Translations under genes and position numbers: made by a program | In this document: positions 4,701 through 35,472 of the stretch, one piece after another | How the letters are laid out: each line of letters begins with the position of its first letter | Numbering within the stretch: position 1 is the stretch's first letter | Assembly: GCF_001614315.2 (NCBI RefSeq) | Contig: NZ_LVEG02000004.1 | Coordinates: 1-64,000, forward strand | Direction of reading: 5' to 3' | DNA length: 64,000 nt | Source: Halofilum ochraceum | GTDB lineage: Bacteria; Pseudomonadota; Gammaproteobacteria; XJ16; Halofilaceae | The notes under the pieces: generated by a model | Databases searched by the model: none | Told to the model about the DNA's origin: nothing | Seen by the model: only the letters and a program-made list of their open reading frames with translations

Positions 4701-4761
4701 GCCCGGCAACACCGATTCAACGCGACTCAGGAACAGAAAACTCCAGTAGAGGGTACGGAAA

Positions 4762-6420
<1,659 letters not shown>

Positions 6421-17167: not shown

Positions 17168-18091
17168 ATGTCCTTCGATGATCATGACGGCACCATCTGG
17201 TTCGATGGTGAATTCGTCCCATGGCGCGAGGCCCGCGTCCATGTACTGACCCACACCCTGCATTACGGCATGGGCGTCTTCGAGGGCGTACGGGCGTACA
17301 AAACCGAACAGGGCGCCCAGATCTTTCGGCTGGACGCGCATACCCGGCGGTTGTTCGATTCGGCGAAGATCATGGGCATGACCATCCCCTGGGACGCCGA
17401 GACCCTGAACGAAGCCCAGAAGGCCGTGGTCCGCGACAACGGGCTCGAATCCGCCTACATCCGCCCGATGTGCTTCCTCGGCTCCGAGGGCATGGGTCTG
17501 CGCGCCGACAATCTGAAGGTCCACTGCATCGTCGCGGCATGGCACTGGGGCGCGTACCTCGGTGACGAGAGTATCGAGCGCGGCATTCGCGTGCGCACCT
17601 CGTCCTACTCGCGCCATCATGTGAACGTGTCCATGTGCCGCGCCAAGGCCAACGGGCACTACATCAACTCCATGCTCGCGCTGGGCGAAGCGACCGCGGA
17701 CGGATACGACGAGGCGCTGCTGCTCGATGTCGACGGCTATGCCGCCGAGGGCAGCGGCGAGAACCTGTTCGTCGTGCGCGACGGCACGCTGTACACGCCC
17801 GAACTGACCTCCGCGCTCAATGGCATTACGCGTGACACCATCCTGCACTTTGCGCAGGAGATCGACGTGCCCGTGGTCGAGAAACGAATAACGCGGGACG
17901 AGGTCTATATCGCCGACGAGGCGTTTTTCACGGGCACGGCGGCCGAGGTGACCCCGATCCGCGAGATCGACCGGCGCACGATCGGATCGGGGCGGCGCGG
18001 GCCGGTGACCGAGCGCCTGCAGCAGATGTATTTCGATCAGGTCGAGGGCCGCCGCAGCCAGTATCCGGACTGGCTGACGCCGGTCCGTTAG
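17168..18091 (+). CDS. ilvE: Branched-chain amino acid aminotransferase
   Basis: The 307-residue class IV PLP aminotransferase shows the family pattern: IWFDGEFVPWREARVHVLTH, LHYGMGVFEGVRAY, the PLP-lysine region RAKANGHYINSMLALGEA, EGSGENLFVV and the C-terminal FFTGTAAEVTPI motif. It interconverts leucine, isoleucine and valine with their keto acids. GGGAGAGGGG precedes the ATG. Related genomes have glnE-ilvE next to the waaF/waaC/waaG LPS core genes. Here the sulfotransferase/glycosyltransferase cluster begins in that place. Confidence 0.97.
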   Translation: MSFDDHDGTIWFDGEFVPWREARVHVLTHTLHYGMGVFEGVRAYKTEQGAQIFRLDAHTRRLFDSAKIMGMTIPWDAETLNEAQKAVVRDNGLESAYIRPMCFLGSEGMGLRADNLKVHCIVAAWHWGAYLGDESIERGIRVRTSSYSRHHVNVSMCRAKANGHYINSMLALGEATADGYDEALLLDVDGYAAEGSGENLFVVRDGTLYTPELTSALNGITRDTILHFAQEIDVPVVEKRITRDEVYIADEAFFTGTAAEVTPIREIDRRTIGSGRRGPVTERLQQMYFDQVEGRRSQYPDWLTPVR

Positions 18092-18535: not shown

Positions 18536-18562
18536 CACGATGGCCCCGTCACCGGTTCAACG

Positions 18563-19549
18563 GTGGCCCCGTACGCCAACCGGCATGCCGAAAACACCTT
18601 GAATACCACCGCTCCAACCCCCGCCCGTATCCCCGCAAGCGCGATCAAACGTCGGATGCTCGTCCTGGCCGGACCGCACTCTGGCGGCAGCCTGGTGCGC
18701 CGCCTGCTCGGCGGCTACCCGGGCGTGTACGACTTCGGCGAGAGCGGCGTATTCTCCGAACTGTCCGGGCAGCCGCGTCGCTATCGACCCTGGACCATGG
18801 TCGGCCTGTCGATCGGGCGCGAGCGTCGGCGGCTCGGGGAACTGCTCGACCGCGCTTACGCCGAATGCGCGGCCGACGCACCGACCCTGCCGCCGCGCGA
18901 GGCCCGTCTCCGAACCGCCTTTGCCGGCACCGTCGCGACTTTTGATCGTGTGGCCCTGGCCTCCGGTTGCCGCAGCTGGGTCGAACACACGCCCGGCCTC
19001 GCCCTTCAGGCACGCCCGCTCGAACGCCTCATTCCGCGATTGCGCATCGTCCATGTCATTCGCGATGGCCGCGACGTGGTCGCCTCCCACTGTGCCCAGA
19101 CGGCCAGGCAACGCGGCCGCTACAGCCGCGCCAACGATGCGCGCAGCGCCATCGAGTGCTGGAATCGCGCGCTGGCCGTGCATGCACGCTGTTTCGGGCG
19201 CAGCGGGCACAGCTTCGTCTTCTACGAAGACCTGATCCATTACCCGCATCGCGAACTCACGCGCCTCGCGCACGAATGCGGTCTCAATGTCGAGAGCGGT
19301 GCCACGGAAGCGGCCGTCGAGAAAGTCGATGTCGCGCCGCCGCGCGCCGCCCGCTCCCGTTTCCGCGAACTGTTCGATGTCGCCGGACGTCGCCGCATCG
19401 AGGCCCGCCTCGACCTGGAGCGCTATGGCGCGCTGGCCGAACGCCTCCATGCACTGCGGGTGGACCGTTACGCGTTCCCGGCCGTCGAGCCCGCCGTTTC
19501 CGATATGTCCACCCGGGGCCCCGCGACGGGTAACGACGTCCTGCGTTGA
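18563..19549 (+). CDS. Sulfotransferase-family protein 1
   Basis: The 328-residue product has the sulfotransferase core. A 5'-phosphosulfate-binding-like loop, VLAGPHSGGSLVRRLLGG, is followed by FGESGVF; a 3'-phosphate-binding segment, RIVHVIRDGRDVVASH, lies near the middle. Such enzymes move sulfate from PAPS to a hydroxyl or amine of a glycan or other acceptor. The acceptor here is unknown. The start is uncertain: GTG 18563 gives the longest form, while TTG 18599 or ATG 18656 would start just before the loop. It is the first of four such genes in the glycan cluster and converges on a GT4 gene. Confidence 0.8.
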   Translation: MAPYANRHAENTLNTTAPTPARIPASAIKRRMLVLAGPHSGGSLVRRLLGGYPGVYDFGESGVFSELSGQPRRYRPWTMVGLSIGRERRRLGELLDRAYAECAADAPTLPPREARLRTAFAGTVATFDRVALASGCRSWVEHTPGLALQARPLERLIPRLRIVHVIRDGRDVVASHCAQTARQRGRYSRANDARSAIECWNRALAVHARCFGRSGHSFVFYEDLIHYPHRELTRLAHECGLNVESGATEAAVEKVDVAPPRAARSRFRELFDVAGRRRIEARLDLERYGALAERLHALRVDRYAFPAVEPAVSDMSTRGPATGNDVLR

Positions 19550-19590
19550 CCGGCAGCGGCATGAAGGCCTGCGCCCGTTATATTTGCTTG

Positions 19591-20787
19591 TCAGATGCTC
19601 CGGTTACGAACTTGTCTGGCCCCGGCCCGCGCGGGCTTCATGTTTCGTTCGTTCGTTCGTTCGTTCGTTCGATCCAGACCCATGGCCATGATGTAGCTTG
19701 CCGCGCTACGCGCGACGGAGTAGCGCTCATGCGCAGAGTGTCGCAGTGTGTCGGGGTCCACGGGGTCATCCCAGGCCTCTGTCATCGAACGCGCGAGTTC
19801 AGCGGCATCGCCAACGGGGGCCAGTGGTCCCAGACGCCCATCCTTAAGGATCTCGGATGGTCCGCTCGGGCAGTTCGTGGAAACGACGGGAGTGCCGACG
19901 GCCATCGCTTCTATCAAGACGTTGCCGAGCCCCTCCCATGCCGACGACATCACCAACATGCGGCTTCGGGAAAGATAAGCGTACACATTGTCCGCGAACC
20001 CGGGCATGTCGATATCGGCTGCTACGCCGTGCTCCCGTGCCAGCGCTTCAAGCGTGCCGCGCAAGCGGCCCTCTCCGAGGATGACGAGGCGGGCGGCGTG
20101 CTGCTGCCGGAACAGGGCGAAGGCGCGGATCAGGGTCGGGAAATCCTTCGGTTCCGCCAGCCGCCCGATACTGAGTACGACCGGCGGACCGTCGTCCTGG
20201 AACCAAGTGTGGTCGACCGGTTCGCGGGCTAGTTCCTCGATCCCGGGCGTGATTACCGGGTTCGGGATGATGTGAATCGCCTCGACGGGCCACCGCATCA
20301 GCGCGGCGTGATCCTCCGCCACGCCGTGGGAGACGGCTATCATGCCGTCATTGCGCGCAAAATACTTGCGAATGCGTGCCAGGCGCTTGCGTTGTTCCCG
20401 CGGGGGGTATGACGATACCGAGCGGGATTCGTGGGTGTCCCCGGTCGCGTAGATGCGCGTCAACACACGCGCTAGGGCGCGGGCCCGGTGCGCCAGTACG
20501 GTGACCCGGATTCGCTGGCTGAGCAGGGCCTTCGGACGGCTCCGTCGCAGGTACAGTGCAAGGGAAGGTGCCGCGAACACGGCATGCGTAGTGCCGAGTC
20601 TTACCACGCGAATGCTCGGGTTCAGGGGCAACTGGTGCTCGCCCTTGTGCTTGCCGAGCACGAGATCCACCGTGTAACCGGCCTCGGCGAGCGCGTTCAT
20701 CAGGTTAATCCGCATCTTGCCCATGCCGCCACTACCAATTTCGGACATCAGGACGGCGAGATCGGGTTTCCGCTCAGGCGACGCCAT
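19591..20787 (-). CDS. Glycosyltransferase family 4 protein with repeat-encoded C-terminal tail
   Basis: The 398-residue GT-B enzyme has the GT4 donor domain: VVLSIGRLAEPKDFPTLIRA, LGEGRLRGTLEALA and WEGLGNVLIEAMAVGTPVV, with the conserved E-x7-E. An N-terminal GSGGMGKMRINLMNAL loop lies in the acceptor domain. It closely resembles the four other GT4 proteins in this cluster. The last residues, DRTNERTNERN and beyond, are encoded by a (CGAA)7 tract and look like an add-on after the normal end at about MAMGL. It is the only minus-strand gene of the cluster and is divergent from the sulfotransferase gene at 20936. Donor and acceptor sugars cannot be told. Confidence 0.88.
   Translation of the reverse strand: MASPERKPDLAVLMSEIGSGGMGKMRINLMNALAEAGYTVDLVLGKHKGEHQLPLNPSIRVVRLGTTHAVFAAPSLALYLRRSRPKALLSQRIRVTVLAHRARALARVLTRIYATGDTHESRSVSSYPPREQRKRLARIRKYFARNDGMIAVSHGVAEDHAALMRWPVEAIHIIPNPVITPGIEELAREPVDHTWFQDDGPPVVLSIGRLAEPKDFPTLIRAFALFRQQHAARLVILGEGRLRGTLEALAREHGVAADIDMPGFADNVYAYLSRSRMLVMSSAWEGLGNVLIEAMAVGTPVVSTNCPSGPSEILKDGRLGPLAPVGDAAELARSMTEAWDDPVDPDTLRHSAHERYSVARSAASYIMAMGLDRTNERTNERNMKPARAGARQVRNRSI
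19644..19671. repeat. Tetranucleotide tandem repeat (TTCG)7
   Basis: Seven perfect TTCG units, 28 bases, lie inside the 3' end of the GT4 gene. Loss of one unit would end the protein two codons after the tract; gain of one would replace the tail with about 14 other residues. All phases stop soon and leave the catalytic fold intact, so this is not a simple on/off switch. Confidence 0.95.
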
Positions 20788-20935
20788 TTAGGTTCCAAGA
20801 ACAGGCGGACAAGATAGGTTGCTGGAAAGGTAGCACTTTCCGAGTTCGTCTCCCAACCAAGTGTCGGTGCCCTGCTGGCTGGCCATGGCTCAAACGGGGC
20901 GGTATCCTTCGCTCTTTTGACAGAAGCTGTAGCGA

Positions 20936-21982
20936 ATGTCGTTCTCGCGGATTGTAATCCATATCGGGCTGCACAAGACCGCGACCCGGTTTCTTCAGCG
21001 GGCGGTCTTTCGGCAACTGGATGACGAGCAGTTCCTGGTCAACCCTGAACCCCTGTTCCATGATCTTCGCCAGGCCGTGCGGCATCCCCGGGATCCAGAC
21101 TGGGCGGCGGCCGCCAAGCGTGCCGCTGAGAAAGTCCGCCAAGAGGCCGGCGGGCGGACGCTCGTGTTATCCGACCCTTCGATTTCGGGGGATATGTACA
21201 GCAGTCACGTGGACTATCAAGCGAATCTCGACCTTGTCAGTCATCTGTTCCCCGATGCGCGGATCCTGTATTTCGTGCGGCGTCAGTCGGACTGGCTGCA
21301 GTCGGCGTATCGACAGTCTCTGGTCAAGGGCAAGGGAATCCCGATCGAGCGCTTCCTGAATTTCTATGACGGCGATTTCAGGGCGCGGGTCGGCCGACGC
21401 GTCTACGGCGCACGCACGATCGAAGCAATGACTCTTCGTTTCCTGGAGATATACCGCGCTTATGCCGAGTGCTTCGGCGCTGAGAGTGTTTATCTGTTTC
21501 GCCAGGAGGATCTGCGCCGATCTCCCGATGCCGTGTATGCACGCTTGGCCGAGGCCCTCGGAATCGACGTGCTGCCGCCTGCTCCGGCACGTGTCAGTGG
21601 CAACCGAGCGTTCTCTGCACTCGCCATTCATTTATTCTTCCGGGGTGTCCGCAGTGCGCCCGCGGCCCCGCCGGCGTCCGCCGCCGATACGCCGGCTGAT
21701 GGCTCCCTGCCCCGGCTGCTTTCGCTTGGGCGACAGCTCCGCACGAACCTTATTCGTCATGGTTTCGACCGGATCGTATACCGCGACTGGGACTTGCTCG
21801 AAAGTCACGGCATGCGCGATCGAATCGAAAGCCACTATGAACGGGAATGGGCGAGGCTGACTGCCGTGGCCGATGAACTACTGCAGAACGGTCCGGGGGA
21901 TCACGTATTGGCGCACGCCGCAGAGCGGGAATCGGCGACCGGGAACGAGGTGAGTTCGGATCGCCGGATGGGCGGTCGATGA
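20936..21982 (+). CDS. Sulfotransferase-family protein 2
   Basis: The 348-residue product starts MSFSRIVIHIGLHKTATRFLQ; HKTATRFLQ is the PAPS 5'-phosphosulfate loop. ARILYFVRRQSDWLQSAYRQ provides the 3'-phosphate-binding Arg/Ser. The middle matches bacterial sulfotransferases acting on carbohydrates, with KGKGIPIERFLNFY. There is no signal peptide, so it should be cytoplasmic. It starts a plus-strand run of glycan genes and is divergent from the GT4 gene. The acceptor is unknown; adjacency to glycosyltransferases points to a glycan. Confidence 0.82.
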   Translation: MSFSRIVIHIGLHKTATRFLQRAVFRQLDDEQFLVNPEPLFHDLRQAVRHPRDPDWAAAAKRAAEKVRQEAGGRTLVLSDPSISGDMYSSHVDYQANLDLVSHLFPDARILYFVRRQSDWLQSAYRQSLVKGKGIPIERFLNFYDGDFRARVGRRVYGARTIEAMTLRFLEIYRAYAECFGAESVYLFRQEDLRRSPDAVYARLAEALGIDVLPPAPARVSGNRAFSALAIHLFFRGVRSAPAAPPASAADTPADGSLPRLLSLGRQLRTNLIRHGFDRIVYRDWDLLESHGMRDRIESHYEREWARLTAVADELLQNGPGDHVLAHAAERESATGNEVSSDRRMGGR

Positions 21983-22043
21983 GCATCGCTGACATCAACA
22001 CTTGTGTTGGGGTATCAACATCCGGGGGGCAGGAGCCGTGAGT

Positions 22044-23417
22044 ATGATGGCAATGCGCCTGGCGCGGGTGACGAGGACTCGTTTCGCGGCACCTGCGGCT
22101 CTGGCGGCCTTGGCCCTGCTTCTGTTGTTCGGCTTGCGCAGCCCGCCCGCGTTCTATCTTAGCCTCGTGATCGGCCTCGCCGCGTTCCTGGCCGAGGGCC
22201 GCGAGCGCATTGCGCGCTTTTTGTCCTTCCCCGCCGTATGGTTTGCACTGATTTTGTGGGCGGCCGTCCTGCTTCGTGGTTGGTTCGATCCGGCGGTTGT
22301 AGCAGGGTCGGGCGATGGCGAGGCGCTTGACTCCGTGTGGCATCACGCACGCTATTCGCTGCTGATACCGCTCCTCTTCGGTTGGCTGCTGTGTGAACAG
22401 TGGCGATGGCGCGGTCCGTTCGTGTTGATATTGATCGCCGGGGCGTTCATCTACTTTAAGGCGGAGTGGGGTATGATCGCCCAGCGCGCTGCCGGGACAA
22501 TCGGCCCGGTACAAGAGCTTGGTGCTACCGCAAGCGTCATGTTTTTCATCGCGATCGGGGTCATCGCGTGGTGTAGGGAACACTGGGCGGATGGGGGCGC
22601 GCGTAAGCGCTGGTCCGTTCTCGTAATCGGCGGTGCGCTAATGGGGAGCAGTGCGGTCTGCCTGGTTCTGTCGGCCTCGCGTTCCGCGTGGTTGGTGACG
22701 CTGGCGGGGCTCGGGGTGCTTGCCGTCATTCTGTGGCGATGGCAGCGCACGGAAGGAACGGCCCGCCGGACTTCCAGCCCGAGCGTTTTGGCCGCCGGGT
22801 TGCTTTTCCTGATCGTGATCGTGATTCTTTTCCGGGATGCGGTCATGGATCGACTCCTTGCTGATGCCGACGTGGTCGCAGCTCTTGTCGATGGGCGGTT
22901 CGATTCTGAAATCGGCGGGTCGTGGGCGATTCGCCTACGCATGATCCTTCAGGGAGGGGCCGACATTGCTGCGCACCCGCTGCTCGGTATCGGTCCCGCC
23001 TCAGTGCGCGATGCCCTCCAGCAGATCTGGGGCCAAGAGGGTTGGGGATACGGTAATTACCATAATACGTACATCAATCTCGCCGTGGCGATGGGCCTCC
23101 CCTGGGCGATACTGTGGATACTCGCGCACAGCTGGGTCGTGTGGCGCGGTCTGGGATGGGTGATTGTTGTCGATCGCGAGTTGGCATTGGCACTCGGAAT
23201 CGCCGGCGCGCTGCTGAGCCACTTCGGTGACCTTCTCTTCGAGGTGCGCTTTTGGAATTCCACCGGTGCAGCGCTCTACGTCATCGTTATGACGTTCACA
23301 TGCGCGACCTATTTCCGGAGTGCGCGGTCCCGGGCTTCGGCGTTGCGCGATGCGGCGGAGGTCACGTCCACTGTAGACGGCGATACCGGTCGACTACGCA
23401 TGGGGAGTGACGAATGA
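22044..23417 (+). CDS. O-antigen ligase/polymerase-like membrane protein (WaaL/Wzy_C family)
   Basis: The 457-residue protein has about ten to twelve predicted membrane segments. Its large periplasmic region ends in LLGIGPASVRDALQQIW and GYGNYHNTYINLAVAMGLPW, the Wzy_C signature with the conserved HN. Family members join undecaprenyl-linked O-antigen to lipid A-core or polymerise repeat units. GC-rich LPS core genes nearby favour ligase, but polymerase cannot be ruled out. ATG 22044 is chosen because AGGAG lies eight bases upstream; GTG 22038 is too close to it. It is within the sulfotransferase/GT4 cluster. Confidence 0.82.
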   Translation: MMAMRLARVTRTRFAAPAALAALALLLLFGLRSPPAFYLSLVIGLAAFLAEGRERIARFLSFPAVWFALILWAAVLLRGWFDPAVVAGSGDGEALDSVWHHARYSLLIPLLFGWLLCEQWRWRGPFVLILIAGAFIYFKAEWGMIAQRAAGTIGPVQELGATASVMFFIAIGVIAWCREHWADGGARKRWSVLVIGGALMGSSAVCLVLSASRSAWLVTLAGLGVLAVILWRWQRTEGTARRTSSPSVLAAGLLFLIVIVILFRDAVMDRLLADADVVAALVDGRFDSEIGGSWAIRLRMILQGGADIAAHPLLGIGPASVRDALQQIWGQEGWGYGNYHNTYINLAVAMGLPWAILWILAHSWVVWRGLGWVIVVDRELALALGIAGALLSHFGDLLFEVRFWNSTGAALYVIVMTFTCATYFRSARSRASALRDAAEVTSTVDGDTGRLRMGSDE

Positions 23418-23475
23418 CGGGATGGCTGCGTTGCGCTCCCATGTTTGAACTGCCGTCCGTGCAAGGATCGGGCAA

Positions 23476-24636
23476 ATGAATCGTCGTCGTGTCGATATTG
23501 CCGTGTTCGGCACGTTCGAGGCCGCCGGTGGCGTTGCGCGCCTGTTGATGAACTATATCCGTTGCTGGGAGCAATGGGGCTACCGCGTCGACGTCGTTGG
23601 CTTCCGCGACTCGACCATGTTTTACGCTGATGAAGCGCCGGCCGATACTTGTTTTCTCGATCTTGGTACGAATAGCAAGTGGTCGACATTGCTTCGACTC
23701 TGGCGGTACGAGCGCAGATGTCGACCGCGTATTGTCATTGGCACGGGGCACCTGTCCAATCTGGTCGTTGCGTATCTGAAACGACTCCCGGGTGTCCGGG
23801 CGCGATGTGTCCTGACTGTGCACAGTTCCCCGACGGTGAGCGTGCGCCCGGAACGGGCACACCGCCGAAACGAACGTCTTCGGGAAATCCGCCGGATATA
23901 TCGGCATGCCGATGACGTGGTCGCCGTTTCGCGGGGGCTCGCAGCGGAATTGCGCGACGTCGTGGGACTGCGGGGAGTTCCGATCCATGCGATTTACAAC
24001 GGCGTCCTGATGCAGGACCTGCCCGAACGGGCTCGAAAACCGGTCGACCACCGGTGGTTCCACAATCGGGGATGCCCGGTCATTCTCAGTGCCGGCCACC
24101 TCGCGCTCGTCAAGGACTACGCCACGCTGGTCGAGGCGTTCGCTCGATTGCGGCGACGGATTGACTGTCGGCTGATTATTATCGGGGAAGGGGCACAGCG
24201 CCACGCGCTGCAGGCGCGGATCCGGCAGCTTGGGATAGAGAACGAGGTGGACCTGGCCGGCTACGCGGAAAATCCGTACGCGTGGATGGCCCGTGCCGAT
24301 CTGTTCGTGCTCTCATCCCGCTCCGAGGGAATGAGCAACGTGGTAGCGGAAGCGCTCGGTCTCGGCCTTCGGATCGTGTCCACCGATTGTCGGAGTGGAC
24401 CGAGGGAGATCCTCGCAGACGGTGCCTGGGGCCGACTCGTGCCTGTCGGTGATGTCGCTGCGCTCGCGGACGCGATGGAAATGGCGCTGACCGACGGCCA
24501 CTCGCCACAGATTCCGGAAAATGCTATTCGACCATTTCGGGCGGACTATGCGGCGCGTCGGTATCTGGCGCTTTCCGGGCTGATCGATCACGCAACTGCC
24601 GAGGAGCCTGGTTGTCCGCAGGCGACGGACCGGTGA
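23476..24636 (+). CDS. Glycosyltransferase family 4 protein
   Basis: The 386-residue GT-B protein begins with a Rossmann strand (DIAVFGTFEAAGGVARLLMN) and has the donor-side motifs LSAGHLALVKDYATLVEAFA, IIGEGAQRHALQARI and RSEGMSNVVAEALGLGLRIVS. It is a paralogue of the other four GT4 proteins; all share the VDH-x-WF segment before the second domain and a GPREIL or GPAEIL motif. GCAAGGATCG precedes the ATG. The sugar donor is not predictable. It is 58 bases downstream of the ligase-like gene and probably cotranscribed. Confidence 0.87.
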   Translation: MNRRRVDIAVFGTFEAAGGVARLLMNYIRCWEQWGYRVDVVGFRDSTMFYADEAPADTCFLDLGTNSKWSTLLRLWRYERRCRPRIVIGTGHLSNLVVAYLKRLPGVRARCVLTVHSSPTVSVRPERAHRRNERLREIRRIYRHADDVVAVSRGLAAELRDVVGLRGVPIHAIYNGVLMQDLPERARKPVDHRWFHNRGCPVILSAGHLALVKDYATLVEAFARLRRRIDCRLIIIGEGAQRHALQARIRQLGIENEVDLAGYAENPYAWMARADLFVLSSRSEGMSNVVAEALGLGLRIVSTDCRSGPREILADGAWGRLVPVGDVAALADAMEMALTDGHSPQIPENAIRPFRADYAARRYLALSGLIDHATAEEPGCPQATDR

Positions 24637-24667
24637 AATCCTCACTGTGGAAACACGGAGTTTGTTC

Positions 24668-25786
24668 ATGAAGGTCGCCTTCGTGGCGCCGATGAAGTCT
24701 TACGGCGGAATAGAACGCACGCTGATGACGCTCGTGCGCGAGTTCCGCAGGCGCGATGTGACTGTGATACTCGCAATGCTTCGGGACAGTCAGACACCGT
24801 ATCCGGAGGAATTGCCGAGCGATGTCGCCGTGTATGATCTCGACACCCGGTCAAAACTCGACGGAATCGGAAAGGTTGCCACGTTCCTGAGAGATCAGCA
24901 GCCCGACGCGGTTATAACTGCCAAGGATCATGGTGCTCAGGTCACGTTGCTCGCGCGCATGATCTATCACCTGGAAGTGCCCGTGTATGTCACGGTGACC
25001 AATATGTGGAGCCTCGTTATTTCCCGCCGGGTTCAGCGACTTTTCGTGCGCTGGCTCTACCCGAAGGCCGACGGGATTATCGCGGTCTCCCAAGGAGTGA
25101 AACGGGATTTGTGCCACCATTTCGGGATTCCGGAACATCTCGTGCAGGTGATCTACAATCCAGTCGAAACGGCCGGCGAATCAGGTGACGTCGCTACGGT
25201 TGTATCGACGGCCCCGAATGCGCCGTACGAGGAAGCCGATCGCGTTCCGGTAATCCTTGGGATTGGTCGTCTGGAACCGCAAAAGGACTTCGCGCTCCTC
25301 GTACGCGCCTTTGCCCGTCTCCGCGCACAACGCCGCTGCCGGTTGCTTATCCTCGGAGAAGGTTCTCAGCGCTCCGTCCTTGAATCGCTCGCTGCCGAAC
25401 TCGGCGTCGCCGATGACGTTGACCTCCCCGGCCAAGTTTCAAGCGCTATTCCCTATCTTCGGGGGGCAGCTCTGTTCGCACTTTCTTCCCGCTGGGAGGG
25501 GTTCGGCATCGTTCTCGCCGAGGCGCTGGCCGCGGGGACGCCGGTGGTCGCGACCGATTGCCCGAGCGGTCCGGCGGAAATTCTGGAAGCGGGGCGTTTC
25601 GGCCCACTCGTGCCGGTGGGCGATGTCGCGGCGTTCGCGGAGGCGATGGCGCAGGTACTGGATGCGCCGCCGGATAGCGAAGTCTTGATGCGTGCTGCCG
25701 ATCGTTTTGCGCCGAGCCGGGTGGCCGACGCCTACCTCGCGGCTCTCGGGATAGGGTCGCGAGCCTCCGTGAGGATACGGCCATGA
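24668..25786 (+). CDS. Glycosyltransferase family 4 protein
   Basis: The 372-residue protein starts MKVAFVAPMKSYGGIERTLM, with the Gly-Gly loop of GT-B acceptor domains. It has ILGIGRLEPQKDFALLVRAF, ILGEGSQRSVLESLA and RWEGFGIVLAEALAAGTPVV. The ATG at 24668 has GGAG nine bases upstream; an in-frame ATG at 24647 lacks one. Its stop overlaps the next GT4 start (ATGA), so the two are translationally coupled. It lacks the VDH-x-WF motif found in several paralogues but keeps GPAEILEAGRFGPLVPVGD. Confidence 0.88.
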   Translation: MKVAFVAPMKSYGGIERTLMTLVREFRRRDVTVILAMLRDSQTPYPEELPSDVAVYDLDTRSKLDGIGKVATFLRDQQPDAVITAKDHGAQVTLLARMIYHLEVPVYVTVTNMWSLVISRRVQRLFVRWLYPKADGIIAVSQGVKRDLCHHFGIPEHLVQVIYNPVETAGESGDVATVVSTAPNAPYEEADRVPVILGIGRLEPQKDFALLVRAFARLRAQRRCRLLILGEGSQRSVLESLAAELGVADDVDLPGQVSSAIPYLRGAALFALSSRWEGFGIVLAEALAAGTPVVATDCPSGPAEILEAGRFGPLVPVGDVAAFAEAMAQVLDAPPDSEVLMRAADRFAPSRVADAYLAALGIGSRASVRIRP

Positions 25787-26895
25787 AACGGATTGCTCTA
25801 TTGTTTGTTACGTCGGGGCACAGCGGTGTGGATCGTGTACTTGCCAACCTCCTGCCGGAATTGGCCAACGCGGGTTGCGAATTCGATCTGCTGACGGTGG
25901 CCGGACACGGTCCCTATATCGATATCCTTCCCGACAATGTGACCCATCGACCTCTGCGGGCAGCCCATCGGGGTACGGTTCTGTTTCCGTTGATCGCGTA
26001 TCTTCGATGCGAACGGCCGGCAGCACTGATCACGGCGAGTCATAAGCTGAACCGAGCAGCACTGCTGGCGCGGATAATCAGTCGCGTGCCGATGAGAGTA
26101 ACAATCCGTATGGGCATGTCCGTTACGGGGCTCGCGGCATCGATGAGGCCACATCAAAGCCGTCGACTGTTTCGCTCCATGCGTCGCTGGTACCCGTACG
26201 CCGACGCCGCAATCGTGCCATCAGAAGGCGTCGCCCGTGATTTGCTGGACTATGCCGGGGTATCGCCGGAGCGTCTGCACGTGATCCCGAATCCGATCGT
26301 CAACGAGCACCTTGATCATGCCGCAACGGAACCTCTGGATGATCCCTGGTTTGCACCGGACGCACCGCCTGTGATTCTGGGCGTCGGATCGTTGGAACCG
26401 CGCAAAGACTTCGCAACCCTCGTGCGGGCCTTCGGGCTTCTCCGAAGGACTCGCGTTCTGCGCCTGGTCATCCTGGGTCAGGGCGGGGAACGTGGAAGGC
26501 TTGAGGCACTTGCACGTGAGTTGGGAGTCAGCGAAGACATGCGTCTTCCGGGCTTTGAGAGCAACCCGTATCGCTGGATGCGAAGAGCCGCAGTATTCGT
26601 GCTCTGTTCACGGCGTGAGGGGTCGGGAGCTGTGCTCGTCGAAGCGCTGGCATGCGGTACCCCGGCTGTCGCAACCGACTGTCCGACGGGCCCTGGCGAC
26701 ATTCTTCAGCATGGACGCATTGGTCCGGTTATACCAGTCGGCGACGAACAAAAACTGACCACCGCCATCGAACAGATGCTCGATCAGCCACCGCCAGCGG
26801 AAACACTGCGGGCGGCGGTCGAATCGTTCGACGCGCGCGCTTCCGCGCGGCGCTACCTTCAGGTCATGGGTTGCCCTTCAGGAGATGGGATATGA
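25783..26895 (+). CDS. Glycosyltransferase family 4 protein
   Basis: The 370-residue GT4 protein opens IALLFVTSGHSGVDRVLANLL and carries ILGVGSLEPRKDFATLVRAF, ILGQGGERGRLEALA and RREGSGAVLVEALACGTPAV. In place of the usual SSxWEG it reads CSRREGSG, a small change near the donor pocket. It is coupled upstream to a GT4 gene and downstream to a sulfotransferase by ATGA overlaps, which places glycosyl transfer and sulfation on one transcript. Base composition is lower in GC than the flanking housekeeping genes. Confidence 0.88.
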   Translation: MKRIALLFVTSGHSGVDRVLANLLPELANAGCEFDLLTVAGHGPYIDILPDNVTHRPLRAAHRGTVLFPLIAYLRCERPAALITASHKLNRAALLARIISRVPMRVTIRMGMSVTGLAASMRPHQSRRLFRSMRRWYPYADAAIVPSEGVARDLLDYAGVSPERLHVIPNPIVNEHLDHAATEPLDDPWFAPDAPPVILGVGSLEPRKDFATLVRAFGLLRRTRVLRLVILGQGGERGRLEALARELGVSEDMRLPGFESNPYRWMRRAAVFVLCSRREGSGAVLVEALACGTPAVATDCPTGPGDILQHGRIGPVIPVGDEQKLTTAIEQMLDQPPPAETLRAAVESFDARASARRYLQVMGCPSGDGI

Positions 26896-27779
26896 CGACC
26901 GGTCGCCCGCCCATAATCATAATCGGCATGCATCGCTCGGGAACCAGCCTTTTGACGCGCGTATTGGGGCAGGCCGGCCTGTTCATGGGGCGGGGCGCAA
27001 GTCGGAACGAGGAGGCTGGGTTCACCAATGCCGTCAATGCCTGGCTGTTACACCAGGCCTCCGCAACCTGGGATCGTCCGGAGTCGGTCGATTGGCTGCT
27101 CGAGGACGAGTCATTGCGACCGTGGTTGACCGATTATTTGGGCGGAATCGTCCGGGGACCGGCCTCGGTTCGTTTTCTCGGTGCGCGCCGCTGGCTGCGT
27201 TATCGGGGACTCGACCAGGTTGCTGAGCCGTGGGGCTGGAAGGACCCGCGCAATACCTGCACGCTGCCGCTCTGGCTGGACCTGTTTCCTGAGGCGCGCG
27301 TCCTTCATATAGTGCGCCACGGTGTCGATGTTGCCGAGAGCCTGCGGGTACGGCGAGAGCGCGAGGTAGGTCGGCGCACGCGCCGGTACGAGCGACACCG
27401 TAACCTGTATTGCTGGAATCCGTTTGCGCCCAAGCGCCGCGGTTTCGGCCCCCAGGCGCGCTGCGCCACGCTCGACGGGGCCTTCGATCTATGGGAGTAC
27501 TACGTTGCGCGTGCCCGAGAGCATACTACGGTCCTTGGATCTCGCGCGCTCGAAGTCCAATACGAGTCGGTATTGCTGAATCCGCGTGACGAGCTCTCCC
27601 GCGTACTGAGTTTCTGCGGGGTCGAACTGAGTGCGGATCAGATCAACGAGATCGGCGCACGGGTCGATCCATCGCGTGCCTATGCGTTTCGCCGCAATCG
27701 AGCCACGAGTGCCTTCGCGGACGAGGTCGCGTCGCGGCTGGAACGCCTTGGATACCATTCGGCGCCGGGGAGCGCATGA
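26892..27779 (+). CDS. Sulfotransferase-family protein 3
   Basis: The 295-residue protein begins MTTGRPPIIIIGMHRSGTSL, where GMHRSGTSLLTRVL is the PAPS-binding loop. GWKDPRNTCTLPLW and ARVLHIVRHGVDVAESLRVR supply the 3'-phosphate site. This HRSGTS type is common among bacterial sulfotransferases encoded in capsule and LPS clusters. The ATG at 26892 overlaps the upstream GT4 stop, and its own stop overlaps the next GT4 start (ATGA). The acceptor is unknown; a growing sugar chain is the likeliest. Confidence 0.85.
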   Translation: MTTGRPPIIIIGMHRSGTSLLTRVLGQAGLFMGRGASRNEEAGFTNAVNAWLLHQASATWDRPESVDWLLEDESLRPWLTDYLGGIVRGPASVRFLGARRWLRYRGLDQVAEPWGWKDPRNTCTLPLWLDLFPEARVLHIVRHGVDVAESLRVRREREVGRRTRRYERHRNLYCWNPFAPKRRGFGPQARCATLDGAFDLWEYYVARAREHTTVLGSRALEVQYESVLLNPRDELSRVLSFCGVELSADQINEIGARVDPSRAYAFRRNRATSAFADEVASRLERLGYHSAPGSA

Positions 27780-28915
27780 AATCGTCGCGCTTTGTTCCCC
27801 CGACGGATGTTGCCGTGCTGGTGTCCTACTCCGGTGATGGCGGCGTCGAACGAATGATCAACAACCTTGTACAGGGGTTGCTCGATGCCGGGTGCGTCGT
27901 GGACGTAATCGTGTTGAGAAATGAGGGCGGTCACATTTATGCGCTCCCGGCGGGCGCGAACGTCGTTCGTTTAGGTACGCGCCATGCGGTGTTCGCCCTG
28001 CCTGGGCTTGTGCTCTACCTGCGGCGGGCGCGCCCGCGTGCGTTGCTCGCGGCGAAGGACCGTGCCGGGCGTGTGGCCATCCGGGCACGGCGCTTGGCCG
28101 GCGTGCCGACGCGGATCGTCGTGCGCATTGGTAATACCCTTTCACAATCGCTCGCAGGCCGGAGCCGACTGCGCAGGATGCTGCGCTATGGCCCGATTCG
28201 TCGACTGTATCCACTCGCTGACGCGATTGTGGCGGTCTCCCAAGGCGTGGCCGACGACGTGGTGGCGACCAGCGGTGTCGATCGGGCGCGGGTTGCAGTG
28301 TTGCCCAATCCCGTTATTACGCGCGAACTGGATGAACGCGCGCGCGAATCCGTAGACCATCCTTGGCTCTGTGAGGGCGCGGCGCCGGTGATCCTGAGCG
28401 TCGGCCGCCTTACGCGGCAGAAGGATTTCCCCACCCTGCTGAAGGCCTTTGCTCGGGTCCGTCGGCAACGCGAAGCGCGTCTGCTTATCCTTGGCGAGGG
28501 GGAAGACCGGCGGGCACTGGAACGCCTGGCGGACGAACTCGGCATCGCCGATGCGCTGGATCTGGCCGGGTTCGCCGCCAACCCGTACGCATACATGGTC
28601 CGAGCCGACCTGTTCGTGCTTTCGTCCGCCTGGGAAGGCTCGCCCAACGCGCTGACCGAGGCGATGCATCTCGGCGTGCCAGTGGTCGCGACCGACTGCC
28701 GCAGTGGCCCGCGCGAGGTGCTGGATGGCGGACGTATCGCCCCGTTGGTACCGGTCGGCGACTTCGAGGCGATGGCCGCGGCTATCGTCGCCACGCTCGA
28801 CGCGCCGCCGGACGGCGCTACACTGCGCGTCGCTGTCGCCGGATACACCCGCGAGCGCAGCACCGCGCGTTATCTCGAAGTCCTCGGCATCGAACCGCCG
28901 AAGTCGCCATGCTGA
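27776..28915 (+). CDS. Glycosyltransferase family 4 protein
   Basis: The 379-residue GT4 protein is the closest relative in this window of the one at 19591-20787. Both have VVRLGTxHAVFAxPxLxLYLRR in the first domain, PNPVITxxxxExARExVDHxW at the hinge and KDFPTLxxAF in the second. Donor motifs are LSVGRLTRQKDFPTLLKAF, LGEGEDRRALERLA and WEGSPNALTEAMHLGVPVV. GGGGAG lies shortly before the ATG. The stop overlaps the following sulfotransferase start by seven bases. Confidence 0.89.
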   Translation: MKSSRFVPPTDVAVLVSYSGDGGVERMINNLVQGLLDAGCVVDVIVLRNEGGHIYALPAGANVVRLGTRHAVFALPGLVLYLRRARPRALLAAKDRAGRVAIRARRLAGVPTRIVVRIGNTLSQSLAGRSRLRRMLRYGPIRRLYPLADAIVAVSQGVADDVVATSGVDRARVAVLPNPVITRELDERARESVDHPWLCEGAAPVILSVGRLTRQKDFPTLLKAFARVRRQREARLLILGEGEDRRALERLADELGIADALDLAGFAANPYAYMVRADLFVLSSAWEGSPNALTEAMHLGVPVVATDCRSGPREVLDGGRIAPLVPVGDFEAMAAAIVATLDAPPDGATLRVAVAGYTRERSTARYLEVLGIEPPKSPC

Positions 28916-29568
28916 TCTCGCATCCCCACAACTTCCTGTTCGTGCACATCGCAAAGACGGGGGGCACGAGTGTACGGCGGGCGCTGCGTCCTTATCGATG
29001 GTCCGGTCGCTACGCGCCGGCACTGTTTTTCGCGAGCATGATGAGCCAGATGACTTGTCCGCGGCACCGCTTGGGCGTCAAGTTCCCGCGGCATGCCAAG
29101 TGCATCGCGGCGAAGGAGATGATCCCGGCCGAAGTGTTTGATTCGATGTTCAAGTTCGTGTTCGTGCGCAATCCGTGGGATCTGCAGGTCAGTTCGTGGC
29201 ATCACATCGGGCGCGAGAAACCGCACGTGCTGGAGGGTGTGAAGACGTTCCCGGAATTCCTGCGCCGCAAGTTCGATCCGGAACGGCCGTACGACTACAT
29301 GCTCGACATCTCGCGCGAATTGCAGTCGGACTACATCGTAGATTTACACGGGAACACGATCGTCGATTTCATCGGCCGCTACGAAAACCTGCAGACCGAC
29401 TTCGACACCGCCTGCGACCGCATCGGTATCCCGCGCATACAACTACCGCATGAACGCCGCGCGGTCGACCGCGACGACTACCGCCGATACTATGACGACG
29501 AATCCCGCGAACTGGTCGCCCGACACTACGCGCCCGATATCGAGCGACTCGGATATACGTTCGATTGA
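28909..29568 (+). CDS. Sulfotransferase family 2 protein
   Basis: The 219-residue protein has the Sulfotransfer_2 pattern (carbohydrate sulfotransferases such as chondroitin and heparan 2-O-sulfotransferases): NFLFVHIAKTGGTSVRRAL for the 5'-phosphosulfate loop and FKFVFVRNPWDLQVSSWHH for the 3'-phosphate site, then VDFIGRYENLQTDF and a YDDESRELV-x8-IERLGY ending typical of the family. It belongs to a different sulfotransferase subfamily from the three upstream genes, so the cluster may sulfate more than one position. It ends the coupled plus-strand run. Confidence 0.87.
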   Translation: MLISHPHNFLFVHIAKTGGTSVRRALRPYRWSGRYAPALFFASMMSQMTCPRHRLGVKFPRHAKCIAAKEMIPAEVFDSMFKFVFVRNPWDLQVSSWHHIGREKPHVLEGVKTFPEFLRRKFDPERPYDYMLDISRELQSDYIVDLHGNTIVDFIGRYENLQTDFDTACDRIGIPRIQLPHERRAVDRDDYRRYYDDESRELVARHYAPDIERLGYTFD

Positions 29569-29812: not shown

Positions 29813-31261
29813 ATGATCCCCGATCAACAATCCCTGTCCACCGCCCGGGTGCTGCTCGTCGGCGATGTAATGCTGGACCGGTACTGGGCCGGCGGGACGA
29901 AGCGGATTTCGCCCGAGGCGCCGGTGCCGGTGGTGGACGTCAATGACTTCCGGGCGTTGCCGGGCGGCGCGGCGAACGTGGCGTTGAACGTGGCCACGCT
30001 GGGCGCGCGGGCGACGCTGATCGGGATGGTCGGGGCGGACGAGGCGGCGGATGTGCTGCGCGCCGGGCTGGAATCCGCCGGGGTCGCGCACGATCTGGTC
30101 ATCGTTCCCGGCTCGCCGACGATCACCAAGATGCGGGTCCTGAGCCGCAATCAACACCTGATGCGGCTCGATATCGAGGATGGCTTCACCACGGTGGATC
30201 ACGCGCCGTTGCTTGATCGCGTGCGCGCGCGCGTGACCGAGGCTGATGTCGTGGTGATCTCCGATTACGCCAAAGGCACGCTGGGATCCGCCGTCCGTGA
30301 CGTCATCGCGATCGCCCGGGACGCCGGCTGCCGGGTCCTGGTCGACCCCAAGGGCGATGATTTCGAGCGCTACCGTGGCGCCCACCTGATCACCCCGAAT
30401 CGCGGCGAGTTCGAGCGTGTCGTGGGGCCGTGCGCGGATGTCGAGACGCTGGAGGCGCGAGCACGTGAACTGGTGGGGGGCCTCGGGCTCGAAGCGCTGC
30501 TGGTGACGCGCAGCGAGGAGGGACTGAGTCTCATCGCGTCTGATGAGCGCGGGCTGCACATCCCCGCGCATCGCCTCGAGGTGTTCGACGTGACCGGCGC
30601 CGGCGACACGGTCATCGGCGTCATCGCGGCCGCCACCGCCGCGGGCGTCGCGCTGGCGGATGCCGTGCGGCTGGCGAACCACGCGGCGGCGATCGTGGTC
30701 TCGCGGCTCGGTGCGAGCCAGGTCACCTACGATGAGCTCCGCCACGCCGTCGAGACCGTCGACCGCCCCGGCGACCGGCGCATCGTCGATGCGGCCGGGC
30801 TGGTCACCGAGGTCGAGGCGGCGCGCGGACGCGGTGAGCGCGTGGTCATGACCAACGGCTGTTTCGATCTGCTCCACGTCGGTCACCTGCAATCGTTGCG
30901 GGCCATGCGTGCGCTCGGCGATCGACTGGTCGTCGCGGTCAATGACGACGCGTCGGTTGCCCGCCTCAAGGGTCCGGAGCGGCCGGTGACGCCGCTCGCG
31001 GACCGGATGGCGATGCTGGTGGCGCTCGACTGCGTCGATCTCGTCGCGCCGTTCTCCGAGGATACCCCCGCGGAGTTGATCGCCCGGGTCCGCCCGGATG
31101 TGCTGGCCAAGGGTGGGGACTACGAGCCCGAGTCGATTGCCGGTTATGACGCCGTGACCGCCTACGGGGGGAAGGTCCGTGTCGTCGATTTTGCAGCAGG
31201 TTACTCGACCACCGATCTGATTGCCCGGATCGCGGCGGAACGGTCTGCCCATTGGTCGTAA
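29813..31261 (+). CDS. hldE: HldE, bifunctional heptose-7-phosphate kinase/heptose-1-phosphate adenylyltransferase
   Basis: The 482-residue fusion has a PfkB-type kinase (residues 1-330: VGDVMLDRYWAGGTKRISPE, LPGGAANVALNVATLG, VTGAGDTVIGVIAAA) and a nucleotidyltransferase (from about residue 345: MTNGCFDLLHVGHLQSL, with the HxGH motif, and VLAKGGDY). It makes ADP-heptose for the LPS inner core. A GGAG lies fourteen bases before the ATG, further than usual. It is a key hint that the region builds heptose-containing LPS. Confidence 0.96.
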   Translation: MIPDQQSLSTARVLLVGDVMLDRYWAGGTKRISPEAPVPVVDVNDFRALPGGAANVALNVATLGARATLIGMVGADEAADVLRAGLESAGVAHDLVIVPGSPTITKMRVLSRNQHLMRLDIEDGFTTVDHAPLLDRVRARVTEADVVVISDYAKGTLGSAVRDVIAIARDAGCRVLVDPKGDDFERYRGAHLITPNRGEFERVVGPCADVETLEARARELVGGLGLEALLVTRSEEGLSLIASDERGLHIPAHRLEVFDVTGAGDTVIGVIAAATAAGVALADAVRLANHAAAIVVSRLGASQVTYDELRHAVETVDRPGDRRIVDAAGLVTEVEAARGRGERVVMTNGCFDLLHVGHLQSLRAMRALGDRLVVAVNDDASVARLKGPERPVTPLADRMAMLVALDCVDLVAPFSEDTPAELIARVRPDVLAKGGDYEPESIAGYDAVTAYGGKVRVVDFAAGYSTTDLIARIAAERSAHWS

Positions 31262-31335: not shown

Positions 31336-32073
31336 ATGTTCTATCTCAAGGGCGAGCGCCCCGTCGGTCCGGCCCGCTTTGAGGGGGGACGCCTCCGGGG
31401 GGAGATAGTGCTGGATTACAATTCTCCAGCATTGCGCTGCGTGCTCGCCGATCCACTCGCGTTCACTCATTCGGACGCGGTCACGGTACTCAAGGACAAC
31501 GCCCGTTCACGGGTCGTGCATGGTCGCATCGACGGGCGCGACGTGGTGGTCAAGCAAAGCCACGCCAAGACGGCGTCGAAGGCGTTCAAACGCGCTTTCC
31601 TGCCGAGCCGGGCGGCACGCGGCTGGTATGCGGCCCATACCGTCGAAGCGTTCGGGGTGCCGACCGCGAGCGCGATCGCGTATGTCGACGCCCGGCACGG
31701 CCCGTTCCGCGGTCGGTCTTGGTTGATTTCGGAGTGGGTGTCCGGCCAGGACGCACGCACCTGTCTGACGGCTCCGGACATCGACCCGGGTGAGCGTACC
31801 CGGCTGATCAAGGCGATCGTGGATATTTATGCGCGTCTGCATCGTGCGCGGATTACCCACGGTGACAACCGGCCTGAAAACTTCATGATTCATGAGGGCC
31901 GGCCCGTGTTGATCGATCTCGACGTGACCGTGCGCCATCCGCCCTGGTCGCTCGTCTTTCGGCGTTATGCGCGGCGCGATGTACGGCAACTCGTCGAGCG
32001 CTGGCACAAAGAGCTTTCGATCGCCGAGGAGTTCCGGCGCGCGTTTCGGGATTACGGACTTGAGGGGGCCTGA
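31336..32073 (+). CDS. LPS core kinase, WaaP/InaA-like
   Basis: The 245-residue protein has a small eukaryotic-like kinase fold: VVVKQSHAKTASKAFKRAF for the ATP lysine, LISEWVSGQDART for the hinge, and a catalytic loop THGDNRPENFMI near residue 175 followed by PVLIDLDVTV as the metal-binding Asp motif. These fit the WaaP/RfaP/InaA group, which phosphorylates heptose or related LPS sugars. The exact acceptor cannot be read from sequence. Its 3' end overlaps the convergent heptosyltransferase gene by 22 bases. Confidence 0.78.
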   Translation: MFYLKGERPVGPARFEGGRLRGEIVLDYNSPALRCVLADPLAFTHSDAVTVLKDNARSRVVHGRIDGRDVVVKQSHAKTASKAFKRAFLPSRAARGWYAAHTVEAFGVPTASAIAYVDARHGPFRGRSWLISEWVSGQDARTCLTAPDIDPGERTRLIKAIVDIYARLHRARITHGDNRPENFMIHEGRPVLIDLDVTVRHPPWSLVFRRYARRDVRQLVERWHKELSIAEEFRRAFRDYGLEGA

Positions 32074-33119
32074 TGGTTGGCCAGGAGCGCATCGAGGCGG
32101 GCCGTGACATCGTCAACGCTGATCCGCTGCATCGCGGCGGGGTCACGCACCCGCCGCCCCCAGCGCGTGTCTTCCGGGTGTAGCCCCGTCTCCGCGGCCA
32201 ATGCCTCGGGGTAGCGGTCGACGACCCATTCGCGCCAGCGATACGGGCCCGTGCGCCAGGGATTCGAGGTGGCGTACAGCCCGATGACCGGCGTTCCCGC
32301 CGCCGCCGCGATGTGCAGCGGTCCGGTGTCCGGCGCGATTGCGAGGTCCGCGCGTCCCAGAACCGCGAGCAGTTCCTTCGGCCGGGTGGCGCCGACCAGG
32401 TCGATCACCGGATGCTGTGCGCGGGACGCGATCGCAGTGGCCATCGCGCGTTCCGCGGGGGCGGGGCCGCCGGTCAGGACCGTGCGCAGGCCATGTGCGG
32501 TCGCGGCGTAATCGGCGACGGCCGCGTAGCGCTCCGCCGACCAGTTGCGCCAGTTGTTCACGCGCGCGCTCGTGCAGGCGTTGATCGCAAGATAGCGTTC
32601 GCCGTCCGGTAAGTGCCTTCGGGCGAAATCCGCCGCGTCCTCCGGTACCGGGATATCCCAGCGCAGTTCGCGTTCCTCGATTCCCAGGGCACGGAGGAAA
32701 TCGAAGAAACCGTCGAGCACGTGCACACGCGGGTTGTCCTCGATCCGCCGGTTCACGAACAGCCCATGGCCGTCCCGCGAACGGGCGCGGTCGAAACCGA
32801 TCCGCAGGGGCGCGCGCACGAGCCGGCCCGCGATATTCGCTCGCAGTGCGACCTGCATCTGCAGCAGCACGTCGAACCGGCGGCCGCGCAGTTGGCGATA
32901 CAGGTCCCGGTACGACGCGAAACCGCGGCCCTTGTCGAAGACGATGAACTCGACACCCGGCAGGTCGCCGACGAGCTCGGCCTCGAGCCGGCCGATGATC
33001 CACGTCAGGCGCGTCTCCGGCCAGGCCTTCTGCAGGGTGCGCACGACCGGCACGGCATGGGTTACGTCGCCCAGTGCAGACAGGCGCAGCAGACACAGGC
33101 TTGAAGGCGGCGTTTCCAT
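32052..33119 (-). CDS. waaC: Lipopolysaccharide heptosyltransferase (GT9), WaaC-like
   Basis: The 355-residue GT9 protein begins LCLLRLSALGDVTHAVPVVR and has FDKGRGFASYRDLYRQLR, PLRIGFDRARSRDGH and the donor motif LLAVLGRADLAIAPDTGPLH with AAAAGTPVIGLYATSNP. These match heptosyltransferase I (WaaC), which adds the first heptose to Kdo. WaaF or another GT9 remains possible, so the symbol is tentative. It is divergent from kdkA (165 bases apart) and convergent with the WaaP-like gene. Confidence 0.85.
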   Translation of the reverse strand: METPPSSLCLLRLSALGDVTHAVPVVRTLQKAWPETRLTWIIGRLEAELVGDLPGVEFIVFDKGRGFASYRDLYRQLRGRRFDVLLQMQVALRANIAGRLVRAPLRIGFDRARSRDGHGLFVNRRIEDNPRVHVLDGFFDFLRALGIEERELRWDIPVPEDAADFARRHLPDGERYLAINACTSARVNNWRNWSAERYAAVADYAATAHGLRTVLTGGPAPAERAMATAIASRAQHPVIDLVGATRPKELLAVLGRADLAIAPDTGPLHIAAAAGTPVIGLYATSNPWRTGPYRWREWVVDRYPEALAAETGLHPEDTRWGRRVRDPAAMQRISVDDVTARLDALLANHQAPSSP

Positions 33120-33284
33120 CGGTGATCGGCCAGCGGGATGAGGGCGCCGATTCTCGGCCATCGGCGGCCCGCTTGAAAGTCCGGCCGCGCTTTGGGGTCG
33201 CATCGTGGCAACGCCTGCCGCAGACTCGCGGGCCATGAACGAAGCGTCCACACGAATCGCCGGTCCGCCCCGGGAGAACTGCCG

Positions 33285-34194: not shown

Positions 34195-35472
34195 TTATCC
34201 GCGGCCCGACTGAGCGGTACCGCGTTCCGGATCGGACAATTCCGGCACGGCCCTGAGCAGGGCACGCAGATAGCGTTCGCCCATATCCGCTTCGCGTTCC
34301 ATCAGTTCCCGCCCGGCCGCGCCCATCCGCTGGAGCTCGTCCGGCGCCGCCAGCAGTCCGGTGACGGCCGCGATGACCTCCGACGCATCGGCCCGGCGCA
34401 GCAACGCGCCCGCCGCCTCGAGCCGCTCCGTTTCATCGGCGAAGTTGAACATGTGCGGGCCGGTCACGATGGGCCGTCCGGCACGCGCGGGTTCAAGCAC
34501 GTTCTGGCCGCCGCGGGGAATCAGCGAACCGCCCATTATGACCGCCTCGGCCCCGGCGATCAGTCCGGTGAGCTCGCCCAGCGTATCGGCCAGATAGATT
34601 GAGCCGGGCGTACCCGCGGGCTCGCCCTGGCTCCGGCGCCGTACCTCGAAGCTCTCGGCACGCAGGGCCGACGCGATGTCGGCGCCGCGGTCCGGGTGCC
34701 GTGGCGCGATCACCAGCAGATGCTCACCGGAACCCGCCTCGGCCCAGGCGCGGGCGAGCTGCAGTTCCTCGTCCTCGTGGGTGGATGCGGCGAGCACGAA
34801 CGGGGCGCCCGGCTCGATGGCCGTGGCCGGCGCGCCACCCGGCGCGGCGAACTTCAGGTTGCCGACGACCTCCAGCCGGTCCGGATCGACCCCGAGATCC
34901 CGGAAACGGTCGCGATCCGTGTCCGAGCGCGCCAGCACCTGGCGGATGCGCCGCAGGCACCACGCGGCGGTGTGGCGCCACCACGCGGGGGCCTCGAGTG
35001 TCCGTGGCGACAGGCGGCCATTGACCAGCGCGATCGGGACCGCCTGGTCTTCGAGCGCCCCGAACAGATGTGGCCAGAGTTCGGTTTCGAGGATCAGCGC
35101 GGCCCGCGGGCGCGTGCGCTCAAGAAACCGGCGCACGGGGCCGGGACGGTCCACCGGCAGGTAGGCGACGGCCGCCCCGGCAGGGGCCTGGGCGCGGGCC
35201 CGCGTCTGACCGGTCGGTGTGGCCGTCGAAATCAGCAGCGGGCCGATCCCGTGGTCGTCGAGTTCGCGCAACAACGGCGCCGCGGCCGCGACTTCCCCGA
35301 CCGATGCGCAGTGAATCCACACGGCGCCGTCGGTGCGGGTGCCGGTATAGCCGTAGCGCCCGTACAGATAGGCGGCACCCCCGTCGCGTGCGGTGCGCAC
35401 CAGCGTATAGCCGGCGAGCGGGAGGGCGAGGCCCAGGCTCGCCAGGCGGTAGCGCAGCGGGGGGCGGCTCAT
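34195..35472 (-). CDS. waaA: WaaA (KdtA), Kdo transferase
   Basis: The 425-residue protein has an N-terminal membrane anchor and the GT30 motifs AVWIHCASVGEVAAAAPLLREL, LLISTATPTGQTRA, VAYLPVDRPGPVRRFLERTRP, LILETELWPHL and, in the second domain, VIMGGSLIPRGGQNVLEPARA with GRPIVTGPHMFNF. It transfers Kdo from CMP-Kdo to lipid A precursor on the inner face of the inner membrane. With kdkA present, it could be a mono-Kdo enzyme, but that is inference. It is coupled to the upstream acyltransferase gene by ATGA. Confidence 0.96.
   Translation of the reverse strand: MSRPPLRYRLASLGLALPLAGYTLVRTARDGGAAYLYGRYGYTGTRTDGAVWIHCASVGEVAAAAPLLRELDDHGIGPLLISTATPTGQTRARAQAPAGAAVAYLPVDRPGPVRRFLERTRPRAALILETELWPHLFGALEDQAVPIALVNGRLSPRTLEAPAWWRHTAAWCLRRIRQVLARSDTDRDRFRDLGVDPDRLEVVGNLKFAAPGGAPATAIEPGAPFVLAASTHEDEELQLARAWAEAGSGEHLLVIAPRHPDRGADIASALRAESFEVRRRSQGEPAGTPGSIYLADTLGELTGLIAGAEAVIMGGSLIPRGGQNVLEPARAGRPIVTGPHMFNFADETERLEAAGALLRRADASEVIAAVTGLLAAPDELQRMGAAGRELMEREADMGERYLRALLRAVPELSDPERGTAQSGRG

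Follow-up and report, generated by a model that had tools for sequence, protein, structure and literature searches.

Between glnE-ilvE and hldE-waaC-waaA of Halofilum ochraceum, four sulfotransferase genes, five genes for family 4 glycosyltransferases (GT4) and one O-antigen-ligase-like gene were found, and this interval is probably a variable lipopolysaccharide (LPS) outer-core locus whose PAPS-dependent sulfotransferases sulfate core sugars. With regard to ST2d, the last of these sulfotransferases, we lean slightly towards regarding it as the founder of a family of LPS-core sulfotransferases that has so far gone undescribed, is passed on mainly by vertical descent, is coupled to the glycosyltransferase GT4e and occurs in approximately one tenth of the sampled gammaproteobacterial genomes, and towards sulfated cores being common but overlooked in this class. 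Sulfate is a fixed negative charge and could change cation bridging, the binding of antimicrobial peptides and phages, and the immune recognition of LPS. Moreover, a sulfotransferase/glycosyltransferase pair that many families conserve within their core locus would offer a single genetic handle, usable in cultured species, on how general LPS-core sulfation is.

The window, i.e. the whole stretch of 64,000 nt that was analysed, is the start of contig C4 (NZ_LVEG02000004.1) of a 3.64 Mb genome. The ten genes from ST3a to ST2d are preceded by glnE and ilvE and followed by hldE, a kinase gene, a heptosyltransferase gene, waaA and lpxL (Table 1). The five GT4 genes and the WaaL/Wzy-like gene of the initial annotation were borne out by Pfam, with best E-values of 1e-31 or lower for the GT4 proteins, which share pairwise identities of 35-46%. 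The neighbouring hldE, waaC-like and waaA genes were likewise present, whereas the LPS kinases mentioned there were reduced to one gene. Three of the four sulfotransferase assignments were supported by Pfam; the fourth protein, STb, stayed under every sulfotransferase family cut-off (best E-value 1.1e-4), yet both PAPS-binding motifs are kept in it. Instead of the two subfamilies proposed, the four proteins form three groups, the sole BLAST match among them being that of ST3c to ST3a (27% identity over 135 aa). Since the NCBIfam profiles gave no name to any of the four sulfotransferases and no GT4 protein reached an equivalog cut-off, acceptor sugars are not assignable. A flippase, an initiating transferase or a nucleotide-sugar gene was not recognised among the ten genes. 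Four further Wzy_C matches were found in the genome, so that the Wzy_C protein of the locus could be a ligase or a polymerase; it is probably an O-antigen ligase (WaaL).

Table 1. Features of the locus and its borders, with positions in the window.
Feature	Position	Strand	Basis
ilvE, left border of the locus	17168..18091	+	NCBIfam profile search
ST3a, Sulfotransfer_3, PHSGGS replacing the usual R/K-containing PAPS loop	18563..19549	+	Pfam E 2.8e-15; motif; dN/dS 0.13 vs G002 ortholog
GT4a, glycosyltransferase family 4	19591..20787	-	Pfam E 8.1e-34; 46% identical to GT4e
STb, divergent sulfotransferase, HKTAT PAPS loop	20936..21982	+	Under Pfam cut-offs; motifs kept in relatives
Wzy_C membrane protein, probable O-antigen ligase (WaaL)	22047..23417; longest frame from 22002	+	Pfam E 1.2e-15
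GT4b glycosyltransferase	23476..24636	+	Pfam
GT4c glycosyltransferase	24647..25786	+	Pfam
GT4d glycosyltransferase; 4 nt overlap with the neighbour on each side	25783..26895	+	Pfam; sequence
ST3c, Sulfotransfer_3, intact GMHRSGTS loop	26892..27779	+	Pfam E 1.9e-21 for longer frame; relatives' loci; fold
GT4e glycosyltransferase, conserved ST2d partner	27776..28915	+	Directly upstream of ST2d in 23/32 outside loci
ST2d, Sulfotransfer_2 sulfotransferase, 219 residues	28909..29568	+	Pfam E 1.3e-11, over cut-off; orthologs in 24 families; fold
hldE, ADP-heptose synthesis	29813..31261	+	NCBIfam equivalog over cut-off
Kdo/WaaP-family LPS core kinase	31336..32073	+	PF06293 over cut-off
GT9 heptosyltransferase, WaaC-like; start approximate, open frame to 33947	32052..33206	-	Best NCBIfam heptosyltransferase I, under its cut-off
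waaA, Kdo transferase	34195..35472	-	NCBIfam

An alternation of sulfotransferase and GT4 genes had been described, and the last part of the locus truly interleaves: from GT4c to ST2d (24647-29568) consecutive genes share 4, 4, 4 and 7 nt at their junctions (25783, 26892, 27776 and 28909), as had also been read before. At the left end the alternation breaks down because GT4a lies on the minus strand, convergent with ST3a; one alternating operon was therefore ruled out. Sulfation during chain assembly, which had been concluded from the overlaps, does not follow from them, since gene overlap stands for translational coupling and says nothing on reaction order. The G+C content is approximately 0.62 in the middle of the locus, whereas most of the nearby flanking sequence has 0.66-0.70, and such a drop is common for variable surface-sugar loci. 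The gap between ST2d and hldE contains 10-nt tandem units and a perfect inverted repeat whose 23-nt arms are 136 nt apart (29581-29762); it has no second copy in the window and resembles a REP-like or other small mobile element.

The order holding the genome is represented in the sample by three genomes, all of one genus, namely that of the window (G000), G001 and G002. In G001 the interval reads glnE-ilvE, Sulfotransfer_1, Sulfotransfer_2, GT4c, GT4b, GT4d, ST3c, GT4e, ST2d and hldE, with waaC and waaA after it. G002 has an IlvE of 98% identity and retains ST3a (84% identity), ST2d (92%) and hldE (92%), but its middle differs, with another sulfotransferase, other GT4 genes, a Wzy_C protein of 28% identity and no ST3c. 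One contig of the latter genome opens with another copy of ST2d, which is incomplete and 89% identical (G002:C35:3-443). The locus is thus placed among inner-core and lipid A genes and holds several glycosyltransferases, and its content varies in the three genomes within conserved borders; kept ends around a variable interior are consistent with an outer-core locus.

The LPS-core context of ST2d extends beyond the genus. Among 369 sampled Gammaproteobacteria, 37 clear orthologs with identities of 53-100% were found in 24 families, and all remaining ST2d matches had identities of 39% or lower; 19 such distant ST2 relatives (39% identity or less) served as control set. Five of the ortholog loci (G000, G001, G002, G091 and G237) were read directly, and the other 32 were counted as outside loci. 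At least one of the LPS markers glnE, ilvE, hldE, waaC, waaA and lpxL was present within the retrieved flanking sequence (up to about 9 kb per side) in 22 of these 32 loci, three of them counted solely on a weak heptosyltransferase match, and in none of the 19 controls (Fisher p 6e-7). The approximately ten loci without a marker include several on short contigs. The gene immediately upstream of ST2d is a GT4e relative in 23/32 outside loci versus 0/19 controls (Fisher p 2e-7) and, with the directly read loci included, in 28/37, four of the misses being at contig ends. A comparison with related genomes, as the initial annotation had proposed, thus links the ST2d orthologs, and not the distant ST2 relatives, with LPS-core markers and with one and the same GT4 neighbour. 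The sulfated LPS/O-glycan locus suggested there is best read as a putative sulfated LPS outer-core locus, by the context of ST2d in 24 families; 'O-glycan' has no advantage over LPS core as a reading. Since this context is kept in other families and the sulfotransferase genes of the genome are grouped on four contigs, the presence of four of them in 11 kb is not due to chance.

The distances between ST2d sequences correlate with those of GT4e (r 0.62, 26 loci) and of ilvE (r 0.71, 17 loci), which suggests that ST2d is mainly vertically inherited; in these correlations the shared species history is inseparable from a coupling of ST2d and GT4e. In a sample of 399 genomes drawn from the phylum, no genome outside the class gave an ortholog-level match, and plasmids and viral contigs gave only matches of approximately 33% or less, so that no mobile ortholog was seen among them. 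ST3c is rare in comparison (9/369 genomes), and its best named relatives are metagenome-assembled Ectothiorhodospiraceae. As a side observation, an AsnB (asparagine-synthase-like) gene recurs in many ST2d LPS loci, e.g. L079, L081, L084 and L097.

Whole-genome statements rest on targeted searches of the contigs of the genome. The initial annotation correctly gave the window as free of PAPS-synthesis genes; one is encoded elsewhere, as contig C20 codes for a fused ATP sulfurylase/APS kinase that contains the single APS kinase domain of the genome. This accounts for the missing PAPS synthesis in the window and rules out that the genome is unable to make PAPS. The C20 locus is capsule-type and contains, besides a Wzx-like flippase and UDP-sugar dehydrogenases, GT4 genes and several further sulfotransferases, most of these names being given by reading the translations. 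Its minus strand encodes two proteins, 650 and 681 aa long (G000:C20:15997-17949 and 18392-20437; L129:498-2450 and 2893-4938), with Sulfotransfer_3 behind a long N-terminal part, a layout like that of N-deacetylase/N-sulfotransferases; the N-terminal part resembles a polysaccharide deacetylase by eye, and no deacetylase was found in it by Pfam. Contig C18 has three Sulfotransfer_3 matches, and a large protein encoded on it combines tetratricopeptide repeats with a Sulfotransfer_3 domain (L008:6617-8521).

The presence of PAPS synthase together with more sulfotransferases in a capsule-type locus raises the question of whether the sulfotransferases of the window act on O-antigen or another lipid-linked polysaccharide, made by this locus or by the capsule-type one, with the core itself unsulfated. 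We regard this as rather unlikely. It would agree with the Wzy_C protein within the locus, with the occurrence of ST3c relatives in Wzx-type loci, besides those in the LPS loci of G001, G091, G123 and G237, and with the sulfated O-polysaccharides known in Cobetia (PMC10974088). The lack of any recognised flippase, initiating transferase or nucleotide-sugar gene among the ten genes argues against it, as does the fact that ST2d-GT4e tracks LPS-core markers in many families.

Both PAPS motifs, the 5′-phosphosulfate loop and the 3′-phosphate motif, are kept in ST3c and STb, and 23 of 23 aligned ST2d sequences keep most of two PAPS-binding blocks (residues ~9-21 and 82-96). ST3a retains the second motif, but a His replaces Arg/Lys in the first one, and this is so in each of the two species of the genus with an ST3a gene. 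The dN/dS values against the orthologs of G002 were 0.09 for ST2d (equal to hldE), 0.13 for ST3a and 0.23 for STb, the latter with dS near saturation; by these estimates the three sulfotransferases are under purifying selection. AlphaFold models of ST2d and ST3c reached mean pLDDT values of 78.6 and 77.9 from shallow alignments of 8 and 6 rows (window sequences and related loci). The listed matches of both models were structures of the sulfotransferase superfamily; the ST2d model resembles PAP-bound sulfotransferases, heparan sulfate 6-O-sulfotransferase among them, and tyrosylprotein sulfotransferases came first for the ST3c model, with TM-scores of approximately 0.5 at best in both cases, which supports a sulfotransferase fold of the predicted structures and not a substrate. 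Tyrosylprotein sulfotransferases are the closest solved structures for ST3a and ST3c, and for STb no solved relative was found by sequence. The PAPS-site check proposed earlier thus gave intact motifs in three of four proteins and matches to PAPS sulfotransferases for both modelled ones, with ST3a departing by its His.

PAPS is available in the genome of the window through the fused enzyme. Strong APS kinase matches were found in 30/37 ST2d carriers versus 10/20 non-carriers (p 0.03), the latter being unmatched for genome size. In G273 the genes for ST2d and for the same kind of fused ATP sulfurylase/APS kinase are approximately 4 kb apart, in a locus that also contains waaA, and a contig binned as Desulfobulbaceae has an APS kinase gene near an ST3c relative. 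Between GT4e and the PAPS synthase of G273 lies the gene for a Sulfatase-family protein (PF00884; L092:10929-12554) with a hydrophobic N-terminus, perhaps a phosphoethanolamine transferase. APS kinase was not found in seven of the 37 ST2d-bearing assemblies, both genus relatives (G001 and G002) included, and its apparent absence from these relatives is the most serious difficulty. Loss to an assembly gap is plausible for G002, because its counterpart of the gene bordering the C20 locus in the genome of the window is followed, after approximately 400 bases, by the end of the contig; in G001 other genes occupy the place of that locus. That some or all of the genes are not active carbohydrate sulfotransferases here, the acceptor being a protein or small molecule or PAPS lacking in many hosts, is improbable: these seven assemblies, the His in the PAPS loop of ST3a and the tyrosylprotein sulfotransferases as closest structures speak for it, and it is opposed by the tight pairing of ST2d with a GT4 gene in LPS-core loci, the strictly conserved PAPS-binding residues of ST2d, the purifying selection and the PAPS synthase in the genome.

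Assembly of the LPS core at the cytosolic face of the membrane and its export by MsbA are established. For the sulfated outer core that we favour, WaaA, the heptosyltransferase and the Kdo/WaaP kinase would make the inner core, to which the GT4 enzymes would add outer-core sugars at the cytosolic face, where soluble sulfotransferases would sulfate core sugars from cytosolic PAPS, supplied by the fused ATP sulfurylase/APS kinase, before export by MsbA. ST2d would most likely sulfate the sugar placed by its partner GT4e, a step that may be widespread in the class, with ST3a, STb and ST3c as putative locus-specific additions, and the Wzy_C protein would probably act as a ligase attaching O-antigen or another chain. 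Because ST2d and GT4e share an LPS locus in many other Gammaproteobacteria, sulfated LPS cores may be commoner than reported.

Among known systems, the lipooligosaccharide outer-core (OC) locus of Acinetobacter baumannii, located between ilvE and aspS, is alike in that it begins at ilvE, contains several glycosyltransferases and has a conserved end and a remainder that varies between strains; it differs in that no 'sulf-' term appears in its description (PMC4172580), whereas sulfotransferases are a main part here, and in that hldE-waaC-waaA lie on the other side here. The capsule cluster with PAPS genes of Vibrio sp. KMM 8419 (PMC11641403) and the clusters for sulfated O-polysaccharides of Cobetia (PMC10974088) share with the window sulfotransferases among glycosyltransferases and PAPS synthesis in the genome. 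However, they make capsule or O-antigen with their own transport and nucleotide-sugar genes, which the window locus does not have; it is the C20 locus, with its flippase and related genes, that resembles them. The nearest functional precedent is LpsS of Sinorhizobium meliloti, for which PAPS-dependent LPS sulfation, as proposed here, is reported (cited in PMC5498481 and PMC6192434). None of the four sulfotransferases matched Stf0 (PF09037) at E 0.1 in Pfam. LpsS, which is alphaproteobacterial, is presumably a member of that family and thereby unlike the four proteins. The literature found describes LPS sulfation mainly for rhizobia and for some marine O-antigens, and no description of a gammaproteobacterial LPS-core sulfotransferase of Sulfotransfer_2 type was found in the open-access part of it. 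ST2d exceeds the cut-off of the Sulfotransfer_2 family (PF03567) and its model is like PAP-bound sulfotransferases, but it forms a gammaproteobacterial ortholog group apart from other relatives (53% or more versus 39% or less). A putative LPS-core sulfotransferase of this type would be new with respect to the open-access literature and has good comparative support.
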